Below are positions 30,052 to 52,484 of a DNA stretch of 64,000 nt, one piece after another. The translations under genes were made by a program, and so were the position numbers. Position 1 is the stretch's first letter; the number at the start of each line of letters is the position of its first letter. Origin of the DNA: Cytophagales bacterium (GTDB lineage: Bacteria; Bacteroidota; Bacteroidia; Cytophagales; 172606-1); the NCBI GenBank assembly GCA_030446715.1, contig JAUJMU010000001.1, positions 721,297 through 785,296 on the forward strand. The letters are read 5' to 3'. The notes beneath the pieces are model-generated. The model was given only the letters and a program-made list of their open reading frames with translations. It was not told where the DNA came from and did not search any database.

Positions 30052-30151
30052 CAGGACTTTCTCAAAAGAAGGTAGTATTGCGCTGGTTCAGGCGTCCACG
30101 CCTGGATCAGCTGCCGCGGAGTCAAAGGAGCGGTATTTTGAGAAAGTCCTG
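30052..30151. mobile_element. MITE: 100 bp, 16-bp perfect inverted repeats, 5-bp target duplication
   Basis: CAGGACTTTCTCAAAA at 30052-30067 is the exact reverse complement of TTTTGAGAAAGTCCTG at 30136-30151. The element is flanked by the direct repeat ATACA (30047-30051 and 30152-30156), consistent with a target-site duplication. Its interior has no coding capacity but contains the palindrome CAGGCGT-CC-ACGCCTG, related to repeats at 50425 and 52358. It sits between a gene's stop codon and its terminator. Confidence 0.82.
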
Positions 30152-50320: not shown

Positions 50321-50391
50321 TTTTCAAGTTAGCCTCTGTGAAGACAGGGGTTGCTGAATCAGTTGCACCCTACCTCAAGCAAGGTTGGGCG

Positions 50392-50446
50392 CTTGCTTCA
50401 GTTTGGAAAGTGGTTAATCGGGTCAAGCGTCTACGCTTGGCCCAGC
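50392..50446. repeat. Left flanking repeat of the MutS-like gene
   Basis: GCTTGCTTCAGTT (50392-50404), then a palindrome CAAGCGT-CT-ACGCTTG (50425-50440). A related arrangement in the same orientation follows the gene, at 52391-52446. The GCGTCYACGC core also occurs in the MITE at 30089-30104. Confidence 0.6.
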
Positions 50447-50541: not shown

Positions 50542-52359
50542 ATGAGTAAAGATTTAAATCGTTTTTTTGCTTCCCGTGTTTTAAAGTTCAGTAAGGAAAA
50601 GCAAACGAAAAACAAAGTCCTTTTACAACTTAGCCTGGTCAGATTAGTCGTATTCATTTCAGGAATTATACTTGTTTTGTATTTTTCCAATGAAAGAGAA
50701 TTTTTGTATTTGCTATCGTTCTTATCTGTAGCACTAGGTGTTTATACGTATTTGGTCTTCAAGTCTTCCGAAATAGAAAAGGATCTTCAAAGGATCGGCA
50801 TGCTTCTTAAAGTCAACCAGGATGAAATACACCGGCTGGAGCGCAAACTGGATGGTTTAGATAATGGGAACGAATATGCTGATTCACTGCACCCTTTCAC
50901 GAGAGACCTGGCTGTCTTCGGGGATTTTTCGCTTTTTCAGTTGATGAATAGAACTTCAACGAAAAATGGGGAGAAGCTATTGGCTGATCTACTTAAATGC
51001 AACCAAAAGCTGGCCGATATCAAGGAAAGACAGGAGGCAATTGCAGAATTAGCAGGGCATATAGATTGGAGGCAAAAGTTCGAGGCAACAAAAAGCCCAC
51101 GCTCACAGGCAAATGACGTTACTTCGTTTTCAACATTTATCGTCGGGTTGAAGCCGGTAAAATGTCTTCCCTGCATGGGAATGTTTTTTATATTTCCATT
51201 CCTGCTCCTCACTACTGCTGTTCATGGCGGCTCTATGGGTTTCACTTTTTATCATTTGATTATCTGCATAATCATTCTCACAATTAACGGTTTTATACAT
51301 ATTTTTTTATCTAAAAAGTACAAACAGGTTTTCAAAGTATCATCAAACTATTATGCGCTGATAATAGATTACTTCAAAATGCTTTCAGTCATTTCTGGGA
51401 CCACATTCGTATCACAAAGACTGAATAAGGCAAAAGCTGTATTCAATCCATCCGGACAGGATAACTACCAGGGGCCATTGGAGAGTCTGACCGTGTTATT
51501 GAAAGGATTGGCTGATAGAGGCGGCCTGTTGAGTGCTATTTTTATTACCGATGCTTTTTGGTTGATGAAACTGGAGTTGTGGAGAAGAAAAAATGGGAAC
51601 CTTGATCTGCCGGAAGTTTTCAGGACTGTTAATGAATTTGAGGTTTTAGTCAGCATTGCGGGCTTCGCGTACATAAACCCTGATTTTGTTTTTCCGGAAG
51701 TTGCAGAAAGCCAAGAAATTATTTTTAAAGCGGAAGATCTTGGGCATCCACTTATCAAACGATCCCAAAGAGTTACTAACAACTTTGAATTAGCGGGCAA
51801 CGCCAGAGTGGTCCTTCTCACCGGCCCGAACATGTCCGGAAAAAGCACGTTCTTAAAATCAGTTGGAATCAATACCGTGCTTGCTTTAACCGGATCGCCT
51901 GTTTGTGCAAAGCGCTTCGTAATTACTCCGGTCCGTCTTTTTGTCAGCATGAAAAATGAAGACAATCTGAAAGAGAACAGTTCATCTTTCTATGCGGAGA
52001 TCAAGAGGATCGAGCAACTGATCAAAATCGCCGAAACAGATGGTAATACCTTTTACATCATTGATGAAATTTTTAAAGGTACTAATTCCGTCGACCAGAT
52101 CAAGGGGGCAGTAGCCGTGATCAGGCATTTAAAAAGGTTGAATGCTTCGGGCTTCATCTCAACCCATAATTCACAATTAGCTTTATACTCAAGGATTGAT
52201 AATACAATCAGGAATGTCTGCTTTGAAAGCAGAAATGATAACAACAGGGTATTGTTCGACTACAAAATCCAGGAGGGAATTGCGGAAAGTCTTACTGCCT
52301 GTAGCTTGATTCAAACCATCGGAGTTGACACGGATTTTGAACTGGAAATTAACTTTTGA
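50542..52359 (+). CDS. Membrane-anchored MutS-family ATPase
   Basis: A 605-aa protein with two hydrophobic segments near residues 34-76 and another pair near 214-260. The core and ATPase of a MutS homologue follow. Walker A is GPNMSGKST (428-436), Walker B FYIIDEIFKGTN, with SSSFYAEIKRIEQL and FISTHNSQLALY downstream. It lacks the mismatch-recognition domain of MutS, so it is not the classical repair protein and may work on DNA or cell-wall-associated complexes at the membrane. Base composition is clearly more AT-rich than neighbouring genes, and codon use looks different. It is flanked by related repeats, which suggests horizontal acquisition. Start ATG 50542 is the only good one. Confidence 0.87.
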   Translation: MSKDLNRFFASRVLKFSKEKQTKNKVLLQLSLVRLVVFISGIILVLYFSNEREFLYLLSFLSVALGVYTYLVFKSSEIEKDLQRIGMLLKVNQDEIHRLERKLDGLDNGNEYADSLHPFTRDLAVFGDFSLFQLMNRTSTKNGEKLLADLLKCNQKLADIKERQEAIAELAGHIDWRQKFEATKSPRSQANDVTSFSTFIVGLKPVKCLPCMGMFFIFPFLLLTTAVHGGSMGFTFYHLIICIIILTINGFIHIFLSKKYKQVFKVSSNYYALIIDYFKMLSVISGTTFVSQRLNKAKAVFNPSGQDNYQGPLESLTVLLKGLADRGGLLSAIFITDAFWLMKLELWRRKNGNLDLPEVFRTVNEFEVLVSIAGFAYINPDFVFPEVAESQEIIFKAEDLGHPLIKRSQRVTNNFELAGNARVVLLTGPNMSGKSTFLKSVGINTVLALTGSPVCAKRFVITPVRLFVSMKNEDNLKENSSSFYAEIKRIEQLIKIAETDGNTFYIIDEIFKGTNSVDQIKGAVAVIRHLKRLNASGFISTHNSQLALYSRIDNTIRNVCFESRNDNNRVLFDYKIQEGIAESLTACSLIQTIGVDTDFELEINF

Positions 52360-52419
52360 CCTATTAACCCTAACTGAAGCAAGCGTCCACGCTTGCTTCA
52401 GTTAGGGTTAATAGGTCAA
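52356..52419. repeat. Perfect palindrome: 31-bp arms, 2-nt centre
   Basis: Arms at 52356-52386 and 52389-52419 are exact reverse complements, separated by CC. The left arm includes the stop codon of the MutS-like gene. The core GCGTCCACGC matches the MITE at 30089-30104. It could act as a terminator in hairpin form, but its length and the related neighbours suggest a mobile palindromic repeat. Confidence 0.9.
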
Positions 52420-52422
52420 TTG

Positions 52423-52446
52423 GGTTAAGTGTCCACCCTTTATCCA
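52423..52446. repeat. Degenerate copy of the GCGTCYACGC repeat
   Basis: GGGTTAAGTGTCCACCCTTT is similar to GGGTCAAGCGTCTACGCTTG at 50421-50440 but its palindrome is decayed. Confidence 0.5.
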
Positions 52447-52484
52447 ACCTGAAAGAACAACAGCCAACCAACAGCCACTTTCGC

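Follow-up and report, generated by a model that had tools for sequence, protein, structure and literature searches.

An extended perfect palindrome overlapping the stop codon of a MutS-like gene and its putative origin from a RAYT-associated REP

In the DNA analyzed here (the window, a 64-kb part of a 1.05-Mb contig in a draft host genome of 6.43 Mb and 25 contigs), a MutS-like gene ends in a 64-bp perfect palindrome. This palindrome is genuine and is a well-formed copy of a REP that is associated with a RAYT and lacks a tag. Elements of this kind are already known, and the new part is the extension of the arms. In the reading that we consider probable, a hairpin of RAYT (REPtron) subclass 2.6 type was lengthened at the end of the MutS-like gene by inverted copying of its 5' flank. 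The features discussed below are as follows.

52356..52419, + strand: whole perfect palindrome, 64 bp, 31-nt arms and CC centre (arm comparison, hairpin scan of the window)
52374..52401, + strand: REP core, 28 nt, CTGAAGCAAGCGTCCACGCTTGCTTCAG, the CC strand being the + strand (family consensus, 74 copies)
52356..52373, + strand: outer arm on the 5' side, 18 nt, presumably the template; nt 1-4 are the end of the MutS-like ORF with TGA (presumed direction)
52402..52419, + strand: outer arm on the 3' side, 18 nt, which presumably repeats the 5' flank in inverted form (presumed direction)
52420..52447, + strand: decayed REP-like stretch ttgggttaagtgtccaccctttatccaa, core-like AGTGTCCAC, directly 3' of the palindrome (by eye)
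50542..52359, + strand: MutS-like ORF, 605 aa, MutS domain V, stop codon inside the palindrome (ORF list, domain search)
50418..50445, + strand: REP copy with a CT centre (TCGGGTCAAGCGTCTACGCTTGGCCCAG), upstream of the MutS-like gene (core search, 74-copy catalogue)
50370..50402, - strand: decayed copy related to the long palindrome, upstream of the MutS-like gene, in which the rare CTGAAGCAAGCG variant recurs together with some of the 5' flank (sequence comparison)
30083..30110, + strand: REP copy embedded in a MITE-like repeat that spans about 30053-30150 and has the ends AGGACTTTCTCAAAA / TTTTGAGAAAGTCCT (core search, 74-copy catalogue)

The palindrome and its dispersed family

The initial annotation described two 31-bp arms that are exact reverse complements around a 2-nt centre and overlap the stop codon of the MutS-like gene, and both points were borne out. 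The arms (52356-52386 and 52389-52419) comprise 31 nt each and are 100% complementary with 2 nt (CC) between them, and the palindrome covers the final 4 nt of the ORF at 50542-52359, so that TGA lies within its outermost 4 nt. The runner-up perfect hairpin in the 64-kb window has arms of only 18 nt, and the predicted RNA fold of the palindrome region reaches -62.4 kcal/mol, whereas shuffled versions average -20.6 (z -12.2). The interpretation in the annotation is partly supported. It missed the composite nature of the arms: the inner 28 nt are a repeat, whereas the outer 18 bp of each arm are the locus's own sequence, except for one decayed relative 1.95 kb upstream.

The genome-wide search for GCGTCYACGC palindromes and their arm lengths that had been proposed recovered a dispersed family whose arm extension varies by locus. 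In the fetched loci of the host genome, we catalogued 74 distinct copies of the hairpin CTGRNNCAAGCGT-CC-ACGCTTGNNYCAG, each matching CTGRNNCAAGCGTCCACGCTTGNNYCAG at a minimum of 20/28; all 13 pairs are formed in 23 copies, 11 or 12 in 25, and fewer in 26. This disposes of the earlier proviso that no other copies might exist genome-wide. When the 101-bp region was used as a query, 51 matches were obtained in the host genome, nearly all of which, self matches aside, cover the inner part only. The sequence GCGTCNACGC was found at 93 places in this genome, mostly as GCGTCCACGC. Inside the window the 10-mer is not enriched (11 found versus 7.5 expected, one mismatch allowed), but across the genome it identifies a real family. 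The element proper spans about 28 nt and consists of a 5' CTG followed by the stem GRNNCAAGCG/CGCTTGNNYC round TCCA. Compensatory changes keep the core paired at several positions; at pair 6, for example, the 68 copies include TA 39, AT 7, CG 4 and GC 3 times. An exact match to a 26-nt stretch of the core was absent from viral contigs, and a literature search on GCGTCCACGC returned no paper on bacterial repeats, judged by title.

The annotation also placed the core in a MITE 22 kb away and upstream of the same gene. Both placements hold: GCGTCCACGC occurs at 30092-30101 within a MITE-like repeat whose centre lies 22.3 kb from the palindrome, and GCGTCTACGC occurs at 50427-50436, upstream of the MutS-like gene. 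A general origin of the family from the MITE was rejected, as 17 of 73 oriented copies look MITE-embedded when scored by a flank pattern of our own choice. The copy at 52356 is without the GGACTTTCTCAAAA ends that the 30092 copy has. The proposal of a repeat family instead of a simple terminator is supported by the 74 copies and by a cognate RAYT in their densest cluster; it is not the MITE, however, that defines this family. We also rejected the idea of a DNA uptake sequence, the half motif CTGRNNCARGCGTCC occurring only 75 times, in many cases at catalogued palindromes (by eye).

Two further arrangements were observed among the copies. Half units such as CTGGATCAAGCGTCC, perhaps by-products of transposition, stand directly before a full palindrome at L086, L026 and L167:2855. 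In MITE-like repeats of the host genome (L242-L252), a second palindrome, AGTGGTCAGTGTnACACTGACCACT, adjoins the GGACTTTCTCAAAA ends, and its copies at L242 and L243 also have locus-specific extended arms.

The cognate transposase and the class of element

In a sister species (G001), a 174-aa protein encoded between clusters of palindromes scores 99 bits for NF047646, the profile of the REP-associated tyrosine transposase (RAYT; cut-off 80 bits). This match inside a palindrome cluster led to the host enzyme: tblastn of the G001 RAYT against the fetched loci yielded a 58.6% identical frame in the host genome at L167, which encodes 181 aa from the shared start and scores 85.7 bits, likewise above the cut-off. 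A search with the Y1 transposase profile PF01797 (E 0.001) had returned two host genes, neither of them near a core, and had missed the true RAYT. Six palindrome copies lie within 2 kb of the host RAYT gene, on both sides, forming the densest cluster seen, and the RAYT gene of G001 (L190) has the same layout among palindrome clusters. In genome G178, a 41% identical RAYT relative has two palindrome copies about 0.2 and 1.1 kb away; around four other RAYT relatives (L351, L352, L361 and L363), the fetched 1.5 kb held no core copy, a point against the reading adopted here. The host RAYT contains a 7-residue tandem duplication at the conserved WQ motif (L167, about 2395-2440), and this duplication, which likewise counts against that reading, suggests that the enzyme may be impaired.

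Because its copies surround a RAYT gene in the host and recur in the same layout in the sister species, the palindrome can be classed as REP-like, and it most closely resembles the "atypical" REPs that belong to RAYT subclass 2.6 (PMC6006769). This subclass of RAYT / TnpAREP, equivalent to Bertels group 5, is described as having "atypical secondary structures" (PMC6006769). Its characteristic motifs are NH[LIV]H, WQ and YIH[QN]NP, and its hairpins flank the RAYT gene with copies elsewhere (PMC6006769). The motifs read by eye are NHLH, WQ and YIHQNP in the host and NHLH, WQ and YVHQNP in G001, which gives a tentative placement by motifs. The palindromes both flank the RAYT gene and occur elsewhere in the genome (host L167, G001 L190), and the NF047646 scores above cut-off identify the enzyme in both species. 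The likeness of the hairpins themselves is one of description, and the passages of PMC6006769 consulted do not mention arm extension.

The family also resembles the GTAG- and CGTC-tagged REPs (PMC3733652), which are short dispersed palindromes forming dimers and clusters, mostly at gene ends. It differs from them in carrying no unpaired GTAG or CGTC outside the end of the stem; here CGTC is central, and the conserved 5' trinucleotide is CTG, found in 60/73 copies. The core stem is 10-13 bp with locus-specific extension, unlike that of the tagged REPs as described in PMC3733652. As with E. coli TnpAREP and its REP (PMC8266576), a RAYT is paired with a hairpin, here a presumed substrate, but the E. 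coli REP has a GTAG foot and a bulged stem.

Locus-specific arm extension and its probable origin

Beyond the 13-bp core, many copies go on pairing perfectly, and the extra sequence is different at every locus. Among the 21 copies in which the GCGTCYACGC centre is exact and every pair of the core is formed, 12 are extended by at least 3 bp, compared with 8 of 420 cross-locus pairings in which the left flank of one copy was set against the right flank of another. The longest extension is 18 bp, in the window copy, versus 5 in the cross pairings, and the summed extension of 93 exceeds both the mean (12.2) and the maximum (55) of 20,000 permutations. A wider set gave a similar proportion (12/23 copies extended by at least 3 bp; cross-pairing maximum 6). 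The arm extension is thus unusual and statistically clear.

A fold-back artefact of assembly is extremely unlikely as its source. The assembly is a draft of 25 contigs, which would fit such an artefact; against it, a single repeated core lies in the middle of the arms, long arms peculiar to their own locus are found at many copies, and two palindromes, arms included, are common to orthologous sites of two other assemblies.

The flanks of the core are asymmetric. When the copies are read along the CC strand, 55 of the 68 exact ones have the 5' CTG and 31 the 3' CAG; the discordant copies comprise 27 with the 5' CTG alone and 3 with the 3' CAG alone (p 8e-6), or 21 versus 3 among the 56 copies left after the 17 MITE-embedded-looking ones are removed. 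The bias recurs in G001 (5' CTG at 21/22 places, 3' CAG at 3/22, counted by eye), and 15 of 16 extended copies keep the 5' CTG. Since CTG is conserved on the 5' side far more often than CAG on the 3' side, we infer that the 5' flank served as template and was copied backwards onto the 3' side, CTG being the tag of the element and the 3' side being remade from the 5' side. The window copy, with its coding end on the 5' side, agrees with this direction as a single case. If the ancestral REP was symmetrical, as most copies in genus g23 are, the CTG/CAG asymmetry could instead reflect later decay of the 3' side, and the direction would then be open.

The probable course of events, including the copying, its direction and its agent, can be outlined as follows. 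A REP hairpin would have settled at the end of the MutS-like gene; its 3' end would have folded back on the stem, with DNA synthesis continuing into the 5' flank, and 18 nt of that flank would thereby have been duplicated in inverted form on the 3' side. The most likely agent is template switching at the hairpin as the DNA is being replicated. Such switching, known from mutations that make or mend hairpins, yields perfect inverted copies (PMC8794818), in one step and with symmetrical changes in both arms, as would be the case here; the cases in that paper are described for RNA genes, whereas the present one concerns a mobile repeat family. Our literature search found no paper joining extragenic palindromes with template switching.

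It is conceivable, although we think it rather unlikely, that the RAYT itself grows the arms by nicking the CC strand just 3' of the REP, so that the paired 3'-OH at the hairpin foot primes synthesis along the 5' flank. E. coli TnpAREP cleaves its REP in single-stranded form, at a CT on the 5' or the 3' side, leaving a 3'-OH that "can serve to prime replication" (PMC8266576). Either agent can yield a 3' arm that is the inverted 5' flank, and only RAYT priming predicts a strand bias tied to the enzyme. Template switching was ranked higher because it requires no extra assumption and the host enzyme may be damaged. Were RAYT priming true, every REP would acquire part of its surroundings in inverted form, in all cases from the tag side. 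REPs would then generate palindromes by priming themselves, and the swapping of hairpin families at the same gene ends in related species would belong to this turnover. How REPs spread and stay palindromic is an open question, and the mechanisms of their dissemination have been called poorly understood (PMC8266576). Under inverted copying by either route, outer arms that repeat a unique flank would be a footprint of DNA synthesis begun at a hairpin, readable from genome sequence alone, and would show a bacterial genome gaining a long perfect stem at a gene end in a single step.

Two other histories of the arms were weighed. A REP may have been inserted into the loop of an existing hairpin, such as a terminator, the outer arms then being the host's own stem. 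REPs inserting into larger palindromes are reported from other bacteria (PMC3733652), a G001 locus (L236/L196) has AAAAAGCCCC/GGGGCTTTTT outside the core between convergent genes, and L100 shows a break between core and outer stem. L100 is the exception, however: in the counted extended copies, the extra pairing starts directly at the core with no unpaired loop bases, and removal of the core would leave a loopless palindrome, which makes this origin unlikely. Selection for a long, stable RNA stem, with the arms built through ordinary compensatory mutations, appears slightly less likely still. It is in keeping with the compensatory changes within the core, the RNA fold z of -12.2 and the location of several copies between convergent genes (ORFs checked around 18 regions), but mismatch-free arms of 18 to 31 bp that differ per locus are not expected from stepwise change, and the stem in the window is followed by no T-tract.

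Gene context and related genomes

The MutS-like gene and a convergent gene run towards each other, with the palindrome between their ends. An ordinary intrinsic terminator of the MutS-like gene, long by chance, would suit the position at the stop codon ahead of a convergent gene, and relatives in g23 have A- and T-tracts (L253). In the window, by contrast, a T-tract is lacking on either side and strand, the terminator scan is silent at the palindrome, and the core is a dispersed repeat. The missing T-tract after the stem leaves a classical terminator unsupported, and we judge this explanation very unlikely. Given this site between the ends of two convergent genes, the 3' end of the MutS-like mRNA probably falls at the hairpin, as, judged by position, does that of the convergent gene, with the hairpin acting as a stabilizer or barrier and not as a T-tract terminator. 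Such a 3'-end stabilizer or barrier role has been hypothesized for REPs (PMC3733652).

The MutS-like protein falls below the curated cut-offs of the listed MutS equivalogs, and a scan of the genome contigs with it returned one distant relative. A DNA search at the syntenic place of G001 and of G002, members of the same genus, did not find the gene; more distant homologues of the protein are present in G001, G002 and other relatives. The decayed palindrome upstream of the gene (about 50370-50402) is in inverted orientation, and its local score against the 5' flank was equalled in 0.4% of 2000 shuffles; on its 3' side it also has TAGGGT in common with the long palindrome. Because parts of both flanks recur in this relative, the long arms may have existed before they came to their present position, or the MutS-like gene may have come between two copies.

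Core matches were found in 6 of 59 relatives (3 mismatches allowed) and in 13 of 390 genomes of the order (2 mismatches). The flanks of ten long-arm host loci were queried for empty sites within the genus. Eight gave ortholog matches in G001 or G002, with both flanks for L158 and L006 and one flank for six; L160, without an ortholog match, and L159, with scattered matches only, were left out. The DNA beside these matches is without the palindrome, and its spacers do not align, leaving the arm history unreadable there. As no empty site with an alignable spacer was found among the loci compared in related genomes, the copying event was not seen directly.

In g23, seven loci were queried and five were aligned with two to six further genomes each; L255 and L259 were left unaligned, as their flank spacing varied or the right flank was repetitive. 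G145 and G082 are 89-93% identical at two shared loci, where they have two palindromes in common with arms alike. Most g23 copies are symmetrical; most centres there are TCGA, and the copies with this centre therefore cannot be oriented. At four or more of the five aligned sites, another species has an unrelated hairpin in place of the REP, with hairpins listed at one mismatch allowed and without a chance control. The L261 site, for instance, has AAACCCTAAGG...CCTTAGGGTTT in G027, two CTGACACTT...AAGTGTCAG in G120 and none in G042, and at L263 all that remains in G145 is TATAACTGGT-tca-ACCAGTTA, which looks like loss of the middle part. Hairpin repeats thus seem to replace one another at these aligned gene ends.

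Several separate observations were made in these genomes. At L256 (G145), the REP has replaced the original gene end, so that the palindrome, as read by eye, now contains the in-frame stop. In G001 (L189-L194), palindromes of opposite orientation recur about 185 bp apart, as though they bounded a repeat unit of some 210 bp. The host genome also contains a palindrome of unrelated sequence with 24-nt arms round one base (L175:335-383), and AAACCCnnAAGGnTCTT...CCTTnnGGGTTT palindromes recur in the host genome and in g23 genomes (L112:260-293, L176:421, L178:28 and L322).
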